A stretch of DNA of 64,000 nucleotides from NCBI RefSeq assembly GCF_014174275.1, contig NZ_JABEQK010000005.1, positions 186,001 through 250,000 of the forward strand. Reading direction: 5' to 3'. Below, one piece after another: positions 15,949-63,800 of the stretch (positions within the stretch are counted from its first letter, which is position 1; each line of letters opens with the position of its first letter). A model generated the notes under the pieces. It worked only from the letters and a program-made list of their open reading frames with translations. It ran no database searches and was not told the origin of the DNA. Made by a program: the position numbers and the translations under genes. This DNA comes from Gluconacetobacter takamatsuzukensis (GTDB taxonomy: Bacteria; Pseudomonadota; Alphaproteobacteria; Acetobacterales; Acetobacteraceae).

Positions 15949-15952
15949 AAGA

Positions 15953-16004
15953 CGGACAGGAAACGCGCGCCGGATCGCCACCAGCGCGCATTTACGGCCG
16001 GGCT
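15953..16004 (-). repeat. Family A repeat fragment, directly after a stop codon
   Basis: On the minus strand this ~50-bp stretch starts right at the stop of the shikimate dehydrogenase-like gene (TGA at 16007-16005). It carries the family A end: GTAAATGCGCGCTGGTGGCG followed by ATCCGGCGCGCGTTTCCTG. The same block follows the stops of yqgE (59666 onward) and fumC (62030 leftward). Only the gene-proximal end is present; the distal arm is missing because the convergent small ORF ends at 15948. Confidence 0.75.
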
Positions 16005-16856
16005 TCAGTTGGTGGGGAGGCCCAGGGCTTCGACGGTGGCGGGGCCGTGGGCGAACAGGACGGCATCGCGGATATCGGCCGGTGAGGGCCGGATGCCGGT
16101 GTAGAGCACGAACTGCTCGATGGCCTGCAACACGATGACCTCCGCGCCGGAAATGACCGTCTTTCCGCGCGCGCGGGCCGCGCGCAGGAAGGGCGTGTTC
16201 GGCGGCTGGGCCACCACGTCGAAGGCGATGGTGCAGGCATCGACCAGGGGTTCGGGGAAGGCCAGGGCCTCGCTGTCCGGCCCTTCCATGCCCAGCGGGG
16301 TGACGTTGACCAGCAGGGGCGCGCCTTGCGCCGGCAGGTCGGGGCGCCAGCGATAGCCGTATTCCCCGGCCAGGGCCCGGCCCGCGCCTTCGTTGCGGGC
16401 CACGATCGTGCCGTCGGTGAAACCGCTGTCGCGCAGGGCCGCCACCACCGCGCGCGCCATGCCGCCGCTGCCGCGCAGCAGGAACGGGGTCGCGGGGTCG
16501 ATGCCGCGCAGGGCCAGCAGGCTCTGCGCCGCGATATAGTCGGTGTTGTGGCCGACCAGCACGCCGTCGTCGTTGACGATGGTGTTGACGCTCTCGATCG
16601 CCTGGGCCGAGGGCTCCAGCCGGTCGATCAGGGGGATGACGGCTTCCTTGAACGGCATGGAGATCGCGCAGCCCCGGATACCGAGCGCGCGCACGCCGCC
16701 GATTGCCGCCGGCAGGTCGGTGGTGCTGAAGGATTTGTAGACATAATCGAGGTCCAGCAGCTCGTAGAGGCGGTTATGCAACCGCGAGCCCGCGTTGCCG
16801 GGGCGGCCCGACAGCGACATGCACAATTTCGTATCGCGACCAATCGGCGGCTTCAT
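16005..16856 (-). CDS. Shikimate dehydrogenase-like enzyme of the HI0607 (SdhL) type
   Basis: A 283-residue NAD(P)-dependent enzyme with the shikimate dehydrogenase fold. It resembles the Haemophilus HI0607 subgroup (DTKLCMSLSGRPGN, VRALGIRGCAISMPFKEAV, LVNVTPLGMEG, VIVLQAIEQFVLYTG) rather than canonical AroE. The catalytic Lys70 and Asp106 (HNTDYIAA) are both present. The nucleotide-binding loop is GSGGMARAVVAAL, followed by ARNEGAGRALA. HI0607-type enzymes have weak activity on shikimate and their true substrate is unsettled, so the physiological role is open. It sits downstream of the fru regulator on the same strand (45 bp apart), which hints at sugar or quinate metabolism. Confidence 0.88.
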   Translation of the reverse strand: MKPPIGRDTKLCMSLSGRPGNAGSRLHNRLYELLDLDYVYKSFSTTDLPAAIGGVRALGIRGCAISMPFKEAVIPLIDRLEPSAQAIESVNTIVNDDGVLVGHNTDYIAAQSLLALRGIDPATPFLLRGSGGMARAVVAALRDSGFTDGTIVARNEGAGRALAGEYGYRWRPDLPAQGAPLLVNVTPLGMEGPDSEALAFPEPLVDACTIAFDVVAQPPNTPFLRAARARGKTVISGAEVIVLQAIEQFVLYTGIRPSPADIRDAVLFAHGPATVEALGLPTN

Positions 16857-32288: not shown

Positions 32289-32385
32289 GCGGATCTTGTA
32301 TCAAGGCCGCCCCGCCGCCGCACCCCCGAAATGCGCACCAGGGGCGATCGAAGGCGCGTTTCGTCCTCGAAGCGGGCTTTCAGAA

Positions 32386-32503
32386 GCTGTTTGAAAAGTC
32401 GGCCGGCTGGGCGAGAGTGCCGTGCAGCGGCCTTGATGGCCGTGAGCACCGAAGCGCAGAAAATGCGCGAAGGACACGCCGGCAGGGTGACTTTACAAAC
32501 AGC
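32386..32503 (-). repeat. Family A palindromic repeat downstream of bfd
   Basis: On the minus strand it begins 3 nt after the bfd stop codon. The outer arms are 15-bp inverted repeats with one mismatch: GCTGTTTGTAAAGTC (gene side, 32503-32489) and its partner at 32400-32386. Inside is the family core GCTTCGGTGCTCACGGCC, also found at 59716-59733 and, with changes, in the recR copy. Its orientation relative to the upstream gene is the same as in the other copies. Confidence 0.8.
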
Positions 32504-32506
32504 CTC

Positions 32507-32725
32507 TCAGATCGCAGGCAGGGCGTCGGACGGCGCCATTTCGGCCCGTGCCTGGATCGCGCGGCGCAGCAGGCACAGCACGCCCGGCACGCAATTGCCG
32601 CACTGCGCGCGGCATCCGCGGGCCGCATAGATCTCGCGGGGGCGGGTGGCGCCATTGTCCACCGCGCGTTCCACATCCTGGTCGGTCAGCATATTGCAAG
32701 AACAGACAAACATCAGGCGTCTCAT
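32507..32725 (-). CDS. bfd: Bacterioferritin-associated ferredoxin
   Basis: A small [2Fe-2S] protein of about 72 residues that reduces bacterioferritin to release stored iron. The cluster ligands are Cys8 and Cys10 (VCSCN) and Cys42 and Cys45 (QCGNC), the family CxC...CxxC spacing. The helix-turn-helix-like fold region DQDVERAVDNGATRPREIY fits. The start is uncertain: ATG 32725 is used here, while ATG 32713 (MFVCSCN, with GGAG about 11 nt upstream) is nearer the usual protein length and ATG 32749 is also in frame. A palindrome that could bind an iron regulator lies upstream. Confidence 0.92.
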   Translation of the reverse strand: MRRLMFVCSCNMLTDQDVERAVDNGATRPREIYAARGCRAQCGNCVPGVLCLLRRAIQARAEMAPSDALPAI

Positions 32726-37814: not shown

Positions 37815-38036
37815 GAGCTTGTTGTCGTTGGGTGCGAGAAGCCGGGCTCTGCCCGGACCCGGCAGGGCCTGAGGCCCTGCACCCCAATCGTTTGAGTACG
37901 ACCGGGTTCCCAAAGGGCGACTGCCCTTTGGCGGGTTTCAGGGCGGAGTGGCCAAGGTTCCGTCGGCCGGAACGGCCGATGGAAAGCCAACGGAGGGGGG
38001 GCCCTGACCTTCGTCGGCAACGCCTCATAACAGCGC
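37815..38036 (+). repeat. Family B repeat, full copy
   Basis: It fills the gap between the SLOG-like stop and the convergent NTF2-like stop. Modules in order: GCAGGGCCTGAGGCCCTGC followed by ACCCCAATC (about 37861-37888), the hairpin CAAAGGGCGACTGCCCTTTG (37911-37930), and GGTTCCGTCGGCCGGAACGG with CCGATGGAAAGCCAACGGAG (about 37959-37998). The same modules in the same order occur at 51735-51940 (inverted), and in part at 56697-56832 and 63640-63800. Confidence 0.85.
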
Positions 38037-44412: not shown

Positions 44413-44576
44413 AAAATCTGTTCGGAAACGTGGGCTGGTGAGCGAGAGCGGCCCACAGGGCCGCGCCCGGCGTGTGTCCGCGAGCCTCAGCGCGGAGCGG
44501 CCTATATGGTCGTGAGCACCGGAGCACAGCGGACGCGCGTCGGATCGCCACCAGCGCACGTTTACGAACAGATTTT
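44413..44576 (-). repeat. Family A palindromic repeat overlapping the end of recR
   Basis: A 164-bp element with 28-bp outer inverted repeats, 26 of 28 matching (44413-44440 and 44549-44576). The gene-side arm on the minus strand begins AAAATCTGTTCGTAAACGTG and includes the last five codons of recR (Lys-Ile-Cys-Ser-stop). The far arm repeats it as AAAATCTGTTCGGAAACGTG. The core GGTGCTCACGACCATATAGG corresponds to that of the yqgE copy. Confidence 0.85.
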
Positions 44577-45158
44577 TCGGGCGGTCAGGGCGGCGGCGAG
44601 GGTACCGTCATCCAGCACGTCCAGGGCGCCGCCCATCGGCACGCCCTGCCCGACGCGGCTGACCGGCACGTCGAAACCCGCCAGACGGTCCTGCAACCAG
44701 TGGGTCGTCGCCGCGCCCTCGACCGTTGCCCCCAGCGCCAGGATCACCTCGCGCACGCCGCCCTCGTCCAGCCGCGCCAGCAGCGGCGCCAGGTTCAAAT
44801 CGTCGGGGCCGGTGCCGGCCAGGGCCGACAGCGTGCCGCCCAGGACCTGGTAGACGCCGCGATGCACGCCCGCGCGCTCCAGCGCCCACAGGTCGCCCAC
44901 CGTTTCCACCACGCAGACCAAGCCGCGGTCGCGCGCCGGGTCGGTGCAGATGGTGCATGGATCGCGCGTGTCCAGATTGCCGCAGCTGGAACAGGTGCGC
45001 ACCGAGCGCGCCGCCTGTTCCATCGCGTGGGCCAGCGGGAGCATGCGCGTCTGCGGCTGGCGCAGCAGCGCCAGCGCCGCCCGCCGGGCCGAGCGCGGGC
45101 CCAGTCCCGGCAGACGCGCCAGCAGCGCGATCAGCCGGTCGATATCGGCGCCACCCAT
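44562..45158 (-). CDS. recR: Recombination mediator protein RecR
   Basis: A 198-residue protein that works with RecF/RecO in loading RecA. It has an N-terminal helix-hairpin-helix (LLARLPGLGPRSARRAALAL), a C4 zinc finger with Cys56, Cys59, Cys68 and Cys71 (TCSSCGNLDTRDPCTIC), and a Toprim domain (VCVVETVGDLWALE, LGGTLSALAGTGPDDLN, EVILALGATVEGAATTHWL). Its last residues KICS and stop codon lie within the inverted-repeat arm of a family A element, so the C-terminus may have been reshaped by it. Order dnaX-ybaB-recR is classic. Confidence 0.97.
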   Translation of the reverse strand: MGGADIDRLIALLARLPGLGPRSARRAALALLRQPQTRMLPLAHAMEQAARSVRTCSSCGNLDTRDPCTICTDPARDRGLVCVVETVGDLWALERAGVHRGVYQVLGGTLSALAGTGPDDLNLAPLLARLDEGGVREVILALGATVEGAATTHWLQDRLAGFDVPVSRVGQGVPMGGALDVLDDGTLAAALTARKICS

Positions 45159-47643: not shown

Positions 47644-47750
47644 GGGGTGGGAGACCGAACAGACGACCCGGGCGAAACTCACTGCGGCTGCTTCCTTCCG
47701 GACCTGACCGGGTTGGCAAGGCGCCCGTCCGTTGCCGGTCTCCCACCCCC
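47644..47750 (-). ncRNA. ffs: Signal recognition particle RNA, bacterial small type (4.5S)
   Basis: On the minus strand the sequence has the SRP RNA signature GGTCAGGTCCGGAAGGAAGC AGCC, read continuously across 47711-47688, which forms the conserved Ffh-binding internal loops and GGAA-type apical loop. Flanking strands GGGTGGGAGACCGGC (near 47750) and GTTCGGTCTCCCACCCC (near 47644) pair to close the hairpin. Length about 107 nt fits the Alphaproteobacterial form. Position directly upstream of dnaX is the usual one. Ends are estimated from the base-paired stem to within a few nt. Confidence 0.93.
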
Positions 47751-51734: not shown

Positions 51735-51940
51735 TTGCTCTGTTGTCGTTGGGTTGGTGGCGAAGGTCAGGGCGCTCCCTCCGTTGGCTTTCCATCGGCC
51801 GTTCCGGCCGACGGAACCTTGGCCAACTCCGCCCTGAAACCCGCCAAAGGGCAGTCGCCCTTTGGAAACCCATCCGTTATCAAATGATTGGGCCGCAGGC
51901 CCTGCGGGTTCGGGCAGACCGATTTCTTACCAACCATTTG
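51735..51940 (-). repeat. Family B repeat, full copy, minus orientation
   Basis: Part of a 487-bp gene-free stretch (51577-52063) between map and the D-Ala-D-Ala carboxypeptidase gene. On the minus strand it runs GCAGGGCCTGCGGCCCAATC, CAAAGGGCGACTGCCCTTTG, then GGTTCCGTCGGCCGGAACGG and CCGATGGAAAGCCAACGGAG, i.e. the module order of 37815-38036. It is oriented the same way relative to the upstream (carboxypeptidase) gene, whose stop lies about 125 bp away. I see nothing definite in the rest of the gap. Confidence 0.85.
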
Positions 51941-53914: not shown

Positions 53915-54297
53915 GCCGGACTGCGGCCGAAGCCGGGGGATTTCGAAAAACAGCCTCCAGTTTGTTGTTTTTGAACGTTAGATCCGGCCATCCGGGCCTG
54001 TCGGCCCGAACCGGCCCATCGGGCGCCGCCCGCGCGCCGTCGCGCGATCCAGCCGCGCGTTTCCCGTGCTCCGGTGCCCCGGCCATGGCGGCCGTGCGGC
54101 TTCGGTACCCGGAAACCCGTGGCGGGTGCGGCGGTTGCGGGCCGCTGCCGCCTGCCCGCCCGCGTTTCCGGCCGGGCCCTGAGAACTTTATTGTTCTTTC
54201 CACTGGCTTTCCGTCCAAAACACACCAAATATGGTCCTGTTCGACCGAACCCCGACCTGTCGGGTTCGTGTCCGGCCCAGGAAAAGGAGCGTCACGG
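53915..54297 (+). other. Gene-free stretch between clpS and clpA
   Basis: 383 bp without a convincing gene. The first part has GC-rich inverted repeats such as GGGCCTGTCGGCCCGAACCG (53994-54013). The last ~120 bp is AT-richer (TTTATTGTTCTTTCCACTGG, then CCAAAACACACCAAATATGG) and probably holds a clpA promoter, though no consensus pair is clear. AAGGAG for clpA is near 54283. Confidence 0.5.
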
Positions 54298-56696: not shown

Positions 56697-56832
56697 GGCG
56701 CCCGCAAGGCGAGGGCTCTGCCCTCGACCCGGCAGGGCCTGAGGCCCTGCACCCCAATCACCTGACAACGACTGGGTTTCCAAAGGGCGAGCCCTTTGGC
56801 GGGGCGTGGGGCAGAGCCCCACAATACAGCGA
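56697..56832 (+). repeat. Family B repeat, shorter copy
   Basis: It begins just after the clpA terminator and ends at the stop codon of the convergent DUF3465 gene. It has GGCAGGGCCTGAGGCCCTGC with ACCCCAATC (56733-56760) and the CCAAAGGGCGAGCCCTTTGG hairpin (56781-56800). The third module seen in the longer copies is replaced by GGGGCGTGGGGCAGAGCCCC. Confidence 0.82.
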
Positions 56833-59068: not shown

Positions 59069-59665
59069 ATGTACAAGGTGATGTTTCCCCTGTCCCAGAC
59101 CTCGGCCGACTCCCTCACGGGCTCCCTGCTTGTTGCCTCCCCGGCGCTGGCGGACAGCCCCTTTGCCCGCACCGTGATCTTCCTGTGCGCCCATGTGCCC
59201 GGAGAGGGCGCGATGGGGCTGATCGTCAATCGGCGGCTGTCGCAACCCGGGCTGGACGACGTGCTGGAACGGCTGGGCATCGACCCGGTGCCGCCGCGCC
59301 GGCGGATCGGGCTGTGTGCCGGCGGGCCGGTCGATGGCGGGCGGGGCTTCGTGCTCCATTCCTCGGACTGGAGCGGCGACAGCAGCCTGTCGGTCGATGA
59401 CGGCACGACGCTGACCGCCAGCCTGGACGTGCTGCGCGACATTGCCGACGGCGCCGGCCCGCGCAACGCCCTGCTGGCGCTGGGCCATGCAAGCTGGTCC
59501 GACGATCAACTGGAAGACGAGATCATCCGCCGCAATGCGTGGCTGCCTGCCCCGCCCAGCGACGAGATCCTGTTCGGGCTGGACCACGGTGCCAAATGGC
59601 GCCAGGCGCTGGCGACCATCAATATGGATCCCATGCACCTCTCCCCCCAAACCGGACGCGCCTGA
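59069..59665 (+). CDS. yqgE: YqgE/AlgH family protein
   Basis: About 198 residues from ATG 59069; ATG 59081 is an alternative and has AAGGTG just before it. The family is widespread, of unknown biochemical function, once linked to alginate regulation in Pseudomonas. Conserved parts: LTGSLLVASPALADSPFART, VIFLCAHVPGEGAMGLIVNR, CAGGPVDGGRGFVLHSSDW, ALGHASWSDDQLEDEI and WLPAPPSDEILFG. A family A repeat begins at the base after its stop codon. Confidence 0.94.
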   Translation: MYKVMFPLSQTSADSLTGSLLVASPALADSPFARTVIFLCAHVPGEGAMGLIVNRRLSQPGLDDVLERLGIDPVPPRRRIGLCAGGPVDGGRGFVLHSSDWSGDSSLSVDDGTTLTASLDVLRDIADGAGPRNALLALGHASWSDDQLEDEIIRRNAWLPAPPSDEILFGLDHGAKWRQALATINMDPMHLSPQTGRA

Positions 59666-59828
59666 GACGCTGCCTGTAAATGCGGGCTGGTGGCGATCCG
59701 GCGCGCGTTTCCTGTGCTTCGGTGCTCACGGCCCATAAGGCCGCTCCGCTCCGATGCTCGGAAACACACGACGGGCGCGCCGCTGCGCGGCGCTCTCGCT
59801 CACCAGCCCACATTTCCAGGCAGCGTCT
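59666..59828 (+). repeat. Family A palindromic repeat downstream of yqgE
   Basis: It starts at the base after the yqgE stop. The outer arms are 27 bp long with 25 matches: 59666-59692 (GACGCTGCCTGTAAATGCGG and GCTGGTG) pairs with 59801-59827. Between them are GGCGATCCGGCGCGCGTTTC, the core GTGCTTCGGTGCTCACGGCC and a second hairpin GCGCGCCGCTGCGCGGCGC. Its reverse complement aligns along the whole length with 44413-44576. With the tandem unit and the fragment below it makes up a 309-bp gene-free gap. Confidence 0.87.
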
Positions 59829-59896
59829 TCGTGGCTATCTGGGACGATGCGCTGGTGATGAGCCGGCACGCGTTTCCAGGCAGGACCTTCGTGGCT
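59813..59896. repeat. Short tandem-like direct repeat at a family A end
   Basis: CCAGGCAG-CGT-CTTCGTGGCT at 59816-59836 recurs as CCAGGCAG-GAC-CTTCGTGGCT at 59876-59896, exactly 60 bp later (18 of 21 identical, with TTT before both). It duplicates the distal end of the family A copy, perhaps a remnant of a second insertion. Confidence 0.7.
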
Positions 59897-59920
59897 GCCT
59901 TTTGTAATGTAAGGCGACGA

Positions 59921-61950: not shown

Positions 61951-62030
61951 CCGGAAAAACCCCGGCTCCCGATCACGATGCGGTGGTCCGGGAGCATGCG
62001 CGCCGGATCGCCACCAGCGCGCATTTCCGG
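61951..62030 (-). repeat. Family A repeat, reduced copy after fumC
   Basis: On the minus strand it starts at the base after the fumC stop: CCGGAAATGCGCGCTGGTGG followed by CGATCCGGCGCGC, the family A gene-side end. The distal arm is short: TTTCCGG at 61957-61951 pairs with CCGGAAA at 62030-62024. Confidence 0.75.
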
Positions 62031-63479
<1,449 letters not shown>

Positions 63480-63639: not shown

Positions 63640-63800
63640 GGAATCGGTCGTCGACCTCGGGGCTCCCCCTCCGTTGGCATTCCATCGGCCCGAAGCGCCG
63701 ACGGAACCTTGGCCAACTCCGCCCCGAAACCCGCCAAAGGCTGGGCCTTTGGAAACGCGTTTGTTTATCAATGAATTGGGAGGAACGAAATCGGGTGTGG
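63640..63800 (-). repeat. Family B repeat, minus orientation
   Basis: On the minus strand it holds TTTCCAAAGGCCCAGCCTTTGG, shortened here to CCAAAGGCCCAGCCTTTGG, then AAGGTTCCGTCGGCGCTTCG and CCGATGGAATGCCAACGGAG. The first module is absent. It occupies the middle of the 424-bp gap 63480-63903 between the fumC start and the terminator of the rightmost gene. The rest of the gap (63480-63640) has no clear feature. Confidence 0.8.

Follow-up and report, generated by a model that had tools for sequence, protein, structure and literature searches.

A MITE-like repeat family with IS5-type ends whose copies mostly lie left end first on stop codons in Gluconacetobacter

The window analysed here, a stretch of 64,000 nucleotides from Gluconacetobacter takamatsuzukensis, contains a repeat that starts immediately 3′ of the TGA stop codon (59663–59665, plus strand) of a yqgE/AlgH-like gene, the A of which can pair with T59829. 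On the plus strand, this copy comprises a left outer arm, the terminal inverted repeat GACGCTGCCTGTAAATG (59666–59682), a structured core with a central hairpin and a side hairpin (59683–59811) and a right outer arm that is the complement of the left one (59812–59828). A degenerate, internally deleted second copy lies in tandem behind it on the same strand (59840–59905; match at 59851–59877), in which the right arm and its flank are repeated over an extent judged by eye. Two other copies lie on the minus strand: a full-length one at recR (44413–44576), with the stop codon TAA (44562–44564) within its left arm, and an internally shortened one 3′ of the bfd stop codon (32386–32503; model match 32379–32510), where pairing begins 3 nt past the stop (32507–32509). 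The initial annotation had placed three copies at these positions, at the 3′ ends of yqgE, recR and bfd and in one orientation relative to their own genes. Pfam assignments of the host genes and the stop positions agree with this, and the arm pairing is reproduced from the printed sequence, with 25 of 27 bases at yqgE (59666–59692 against 59802–59828), 26 of 28 at recR (44413–44440 against 44549–44576) and 14 of 15 at bfd. The window also holds two left-end fragments on the minus strand, one directly 3′ of the stop of an aroE-like gene (15951–16004; gene 16005–16820, minus strand) and one at a fumarase-like gene (61998–62040) with the stop TGA (62031–62033) inside the arm, as well as a diverged core copy on the plus strand (54044–54170), with no called stop codon at its place.

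The arms seem to provide the last codons and the stop of the protein at recR (window 44562–44580) and at C5:8207, C8:184150 and C8:199693; RecR ends in ARKICS in this genome, compared with ARRPA in four Gluconacetobacter species that lack the element at this locus. Two further features were recorded in the window, namely a bacterial small SRP RNA (47647–47743, minus strand) and a second repeat family (37856–38021, 51753–51903, 56726–56790 and 63657–63740) of the form GACCCGGCAGGGCC..GGCCCTGC... and CCGTTGGC..CCAAGG, which has matches in seven further fetched genome stretches besides one that overlaps the window.

The family numbers about 85–100 copies in its own genome, many of them 164–172 nt long, and these copies are short, non-coding, dispersed and numerous, as is characteristic of MITEs. 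Across the 3.78 Mb genome, BLAST with the yqgE copy returns at least 52 rows, at least 45 of them long, with scoring of 40 out of 195 candidate regions, and a covariance model built from 29 copies gives 114 rows genome-wide at E ≤ 0.01, some of which are antisense echoes of one copy. The left-end pattern with up to three mismatches has 101 matches, some of those with three mismatches possibly due to chance, against 0 for the reversed pattern. Beyond this genome, the family is present in all 14 genomes of the genus (9 to 137 rows each, E ≤ 0.001) and, under stricter filters, in 28 of 150 Acetobacteraceae genomes, three of which are Gluconacetobacter, and in 22 of 102 genera. The covariance-model search of the genome and of related Acetobacteraceae confirms that the repeats seen in the window belong to a widespread family, the abundance of which is far beyond chance. 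A survey of the open literature, judged by titles and the beginnings of abstracts and with most subscription papers outside its scope, yielded no description of it. Very short versions of about 35–65 nt, with the arms and the core ends kept, lie by stop codons at L074, L059 and yqgE of G002. Tandem copies occur at L050, L080, L068 and L065 and at window 59840–59905; several of the second copies repeat the right arm and about 20 nt of flank without a well-matching left arm, which the second copy at L068 does carry.

The relation of these copies to genes was assessed on 86 of the 98 places fetched, namely those with 96 bases or more, leaving aside 12 that were short or one-ended; five of the 86 are, by eye, second copies in tandem. 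A copy was counted as lying on a stop when its left arm starts within −4 to +1 of the stop of a good coding ORF. By this measure, 50 of 86 copies have their left end on the stop codon of a gene and 3 of 86 their right end (p=6e-12 for the orientation bias), figures that depend on a codon-usage heuristic by which some stops are missed and on a model (R1) derived from a set rich in stop copies, with the CTGA columns included, and so slightly biased towards stop copies. The register is exactly equal in 36 of the 50 stop copies (TGA 31, TAG 3, TAA 2), and 6 further copies of the 86 have the stop inside the arm. For comparison, stop codons make up 9.4% of TNA, 25% of CTGA and 36% of CTGAG sites in intergenic DNA of the window and the same loci. 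Symmetric ends do not account for the orientation at stops, and no orientation bias is seen in copies located elsewhere (a gene end is found within 300 nt on the left only in 7, on the right only in 6, on both sides in 6 and on neither in 8). The pattern recurs in three other genera, where 12 of 20 well-scoring copies have the left end and 1 of 20 the right end on a stop. The preference for stop codons and the fixed orientation at them, first noticed in three copies, therefore hold genome-wide. Upstream of the stop-anchored copies there is no strong sequence motif beyond the stop itself, and the orientation of neighbouring genes is not telling (next gene convergent in 23 of 50, compared with 37% overall). 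Short hairpins follow 33 of 281 stops versus 24 of 790 random places, and those nearest the stop include shortened family members. The same stop can also be occupied by different subfamilies in sister species (site 24; yqgE in G010).

Consistent with the initial annotation, the outer arms co-vary: over 64 copies, the outer 11 bp pair at 9.64 of 11 positions within a copy and at 6.26 of 11 when arms are swapped between copies. The outcomes named in the initial annotation as fatal to the targeted-hairpin idea, no genome-wide preference for stops or orientation, or arms that co-vary no more than by chance, did not occur. Arm faults over 17 bp in 64 copies comprise 38 G.T, 33 A.C and 75 others, 30 of these at one position. 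At sites shared by this genome, G002 and G010 (13 for own–G002, 8 for own–G010 and 9 for G002–G010, in overlapping sets), 510 paired cells divide into 317 that are the same, 108 in which both sides have changed and are paired in both species, and 85 others. Arm likeness between this genome and G002 is 0.67 at the same site versus 0.40 at different sites, with 0 of 5000 permutations as high. Core likeness at the same and at different sites differs by just 2 to 6 points (0.846 versus 0.825 for own–G002, p=0.21; 0.889 versus 0.844 for own–G010, p=0.0008; 0.911 versus 0.849 for G002–G010, p=0.0016). Comparisons with G009 (2 sites) and G004 (3 sites) involve too few sites and show no orthology signal even in the arms. 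Full concerted evolution of the cores was rejected in view of the orthology signal in own–G010 and G002–G010, and the weak form alone was kept. The likeness of arms at the same site, together with the paired changes, shows that each site passes on its own arms, which are for the most part rewritten in pairs. Since G.U and A.C faults are about equally frequent (38 and 33), the pairing of the arms gives no indication that the sense RNA is under selection. The initial annotation had envisaged either selection or a generating mechanism behind the co-variation, and a DNA-level process that homogenises the arms fits their pairing at least as well as sense-RNA selection. Template switching is known to homogenise the arms of inverted repeats (PMC8604942).

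The element as a whole is highly structured. Its sense fold is far more stable than those of shuffled sequences (z −9.6), and the covariance analysis reveals double changes at 24 of 62 consensus pairs. The antisense strand folds better than the sense strand in 64 of 65 own copies (mean −113 versus −98 kcal/mol) and in 20 of 20 copies from other genera, and the sense strand of the core carries 307 A.C against 121 G.T mismatches. Within a genome, the asymmetry in 64 of 65 copies counts as one inherited property instead of 65 separate observations. More weight attaches to its recurrence in other genera, which have other cores, although all of these are related by descent. A U-tract (at least five T among the 8 nt that follow the right arm) is present in 2 of 65 copies only, a terminator scan gives no terminator at the yqgE copy, and Rfam at the gathering cut-off gives no match over the element in the window. 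At E ≤ 0.1, the Rfam matches in five loci are limited to a SAM riboswitch and a microRNA model below threshold; a SAM-I/IV riboswitch match above the cut-off lies at L092 4411–4515 on the minus strand. Near absence of U-tracts and the poorer folding of the strand that matches the host mRNA mean that a terminator function, as suggested in the initial annotation, is not supported. The proposed association with mRNA 3′ ends stands as placement at stop codons (50 of 86 left ends), the form in which it was examined.

The arms of the family resemble IS5-type inverted repeats (GAGCCTGTTTG..., with TNA target duplication), a likeness confined to the ends. A search for a transposase with matching ends, as the initial annotation had suggested, finds two intact IS5-family elements (transpos_IS5_3, DDE_Tnp_1, DUF4096) in the same genome; they end in GAGCCTGTTTGGGAAATC and GAGCCTGTTTGAGAATG, with duplications TAA and TTA, close to arms of the family such as GAGCCTGTTTGGAAATG, so that the repeats and the resident IS have similar terminal inverted repeats. 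Target duplication is visible at some sites. Among the alignments listed, the stop triplet TGA is repeated at both element ends at C1:145667 and C2:78138 (empty in G009), TAA stands at both ends at C12:60402, where G004 has TAG, and TGA stands at both ends at secA (Pfam), where G009 has TAG. L318 and L322, in another genus, have TTA at either end, as does a family copy in G008 (L368 1900–2120) that lies directly after a truncated IS5-type transposase frame. The well-aligned filled and empty pairs at sites 8, 30 and 32, among the same alignments, show no duplication, and two non-stop copies have only the right-hand TCA intact, the left triplet being TCG (C4:191599) or CGA (C1:472730). TNA lies on the right side in 9 of 78 copies, versus about 2.5 expected from base composition, and the commonest right-hand triplet is TGC (9 of 78). 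Because no more than 8 of 78 copies have TNA at both ends, mobilisation by an IS5-family transposase is something that we infer. A related IS with similar ends in G004 and G005 has identical left and right TNA flanks in 18 of 23 copies, consistent with TNA duplication; by heuristic gene calls, a native stop is its target in 0 of 18 insertions that are distinct by left flank, the one junction stop belonging to the interrupted frame. None of 30 IS5-type loci has the MITE core inside an IS, the lone match (L368) being a separate MITE copy. At 34 sites, the gene and its orthologue share their end codon in 30 of 34 cases in G002, 27 of 30 in G009, 23 of 28 in G004 and 27 of 30 in G010. Only 1 of 76 strictly empty orthologous sites carries the copy's own left arm (7 of 8 or better in the first 8 bases), indicating that the arms came along with the element.

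These results are probably best explained by a MITE of about 164 nt with IS5-type ends, inserted in trans at TNA sites, of which copies on stop codons have been retained and the arms kept complementary. The outer arms represent the type of terminal inverted repeat found in full-length IS5-family elements of the same genome, and a trans-acting transposase would put copies at TNA sites, as some duplications suggest. Insertion on TGA or TAA would leave the protein intact and so be harmless, since the stop codon is duplicated. Copies arriving left end first on stops would then be kept preferentially, perhaps because other positions or orientations near genes are costlier or because a structure at the gene end is useful. 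The arms drift from the original repeat and stay largely complementary, for which template switching between arms during DNA replication may be the likeliest cause and selection for a folded structure an alternative one. As the related IS has none of 18 insertions on native stops, the preference for stops and for one orientation is probably generated after insertion or by a different transposase, and retention is the simplest account of the stop bias given that this IS shows no preference for stops. Selection for retention is not shown by sharing with G002, as stop copies are not clearly more shared than others: 14 of 34 stop sites are full-length there, versus element sequence at 7 of 17 other sites, with long versions at 4 of the 7 (Fisher p 1.0 and 0.35), and some of these 17 may be stops that the heuristic gene calls missed.

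The bias could instead reflect targeting, with a mobilising enzyme that recognises gene ends by stop codon and direction, which we regard as possible but somewhat unlikely. The excess of left over right ends on stops, yet no orientation bias away from them, would suit such an enzyme, as would the recurrence of the bias in other genera and the presence of different subfamilies at one stop in different species (site 24). One argument against it comes from an IS5-type element with similar ends that also uses TNA targets and in 23 copies (18 distinct) is never on a native stop by heuristic gene calls; the lack of a strong upstream motif beyond the stop is another. We would give rather little credence to an Acetobacteraceae-wide mobile element that senses direction to install itself left end first on stops as a gene-end module, with the opposite-strand fold conserved, arms inherited per site and rewritten in pairs, and cores nearly interchangeable.

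A functional RNA element at the 3′ end, that is, a domesticated hairpin that protects or delimits the mRNA and has its arms kept paired by RNA selection, would agree with the very stable sense fold, the double changes in 24 of 62 consensus pairs and the exact placement at stops. It is nevertheless unlikely in light of arm faults that do not favour G.U over A.C, the excess of A.C over G.T on the sense strand of the core, the greater stability of the antisense RNA in 64 of 65 own and 20 of 20 other-genus copies, and U-tracts in just 2 of 65. Pre-existing host terminators, into the loops of which a core element inserts, would explain why arms are site-specific between species and cores nearly shared, and yqgE of G004 and G005 does have a short hairpin-like TGAGACGCTGC..GGCAGAGGTC without the core. 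This origin is very improbable, however: a GAGCCTGNNNG-type consensus common to the arms agrees with the IS5 inverted repeats, such target duplications as were observed are located beyond the arms, and the match of 1 in 76 empty sites to the copy's own arm leads us to reject host terminators or inverted host flank as a rule. Among the alignments listed, GACCCTG also follows the stop at the G009 site C12:73724, which may represent a decayed copy; recR of G. diazotrophicus shares AAAAATCTG.

With copies lying exactly on stop codons in one orientation, the MITE family amounts to a natural experiment that shows how gene ends filter or make use of mobile DNA. Sister species in which the arms at a shared site have drifted in pairs provide many replicate cases for separating template switching from RNA selection. 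Genome annotation would also benefit, as such elements can rewrite last codons, for example those of recR.

Comparison with known systems places the family near several others. Integron attC sites are imperfect hairpins that follow a stop in fixed orientation, with arms that are paired but variable and one strand that folds better, all of which they share with the family. Their ends carry the boxes RYYYAAC and GTTRRRY, which a pattern test finds at both ends in 0 of 86 copies, and family copies, unlike attC sites, are mostly dispersed, with some tandem pairs. The IS5-family elements, which we take to be of the IS1031-type group with its TNA habit, have GAGCC... inverted repeats and TNA duplications like the MITE and occur in the same genome and genus, but they carry a transposase, were not found at native stops by heuristic gene calls and showed no MITE core in the 30 loci examined. 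The initial suggestion of a MITE/REP-like element can be divided accordingly: IS5-type ends and dispersed copies favour a mobile MITE-like element, whereas membership of REP is not supported on account of GAGCC-like ends, IS5-type inverted repeats and the absence, by eye, of a GTAG or CGTC tag at the hairpin base in the ends listed. REP/GTAG palindromes are found near gene ends like the family, and their GTAG termini often give a TAG stop, but they are 20–40 bp long with GTAG/CGTC tags, and CGTC repeats are reported missing in Acetobacteraceae (PMC3733652). YPAL is likewise a mobile repeat of about 168 bp near genes, in enterobacteria, but differs in its duplications of 3–26 bp and internal inverted repeats, and the available text of that report does not mention stop-codon anchoring (PMC2229807); the likeness to ERIC lies in the orientation-dependent effect on upstream mRNA that is a feature of ERIC (PMC2229807). 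MITEAba12 resembles the family in being short and non-coding, with target duplications and inverted repeats like those of a co-resident IS (PMC6382973). Its terminal inverted repeats are the most conserved part and no orientation preference was seen (PMC6382973), whereas the present family combines paired but very variable outer 11 bp with a fixed orientation at stops.
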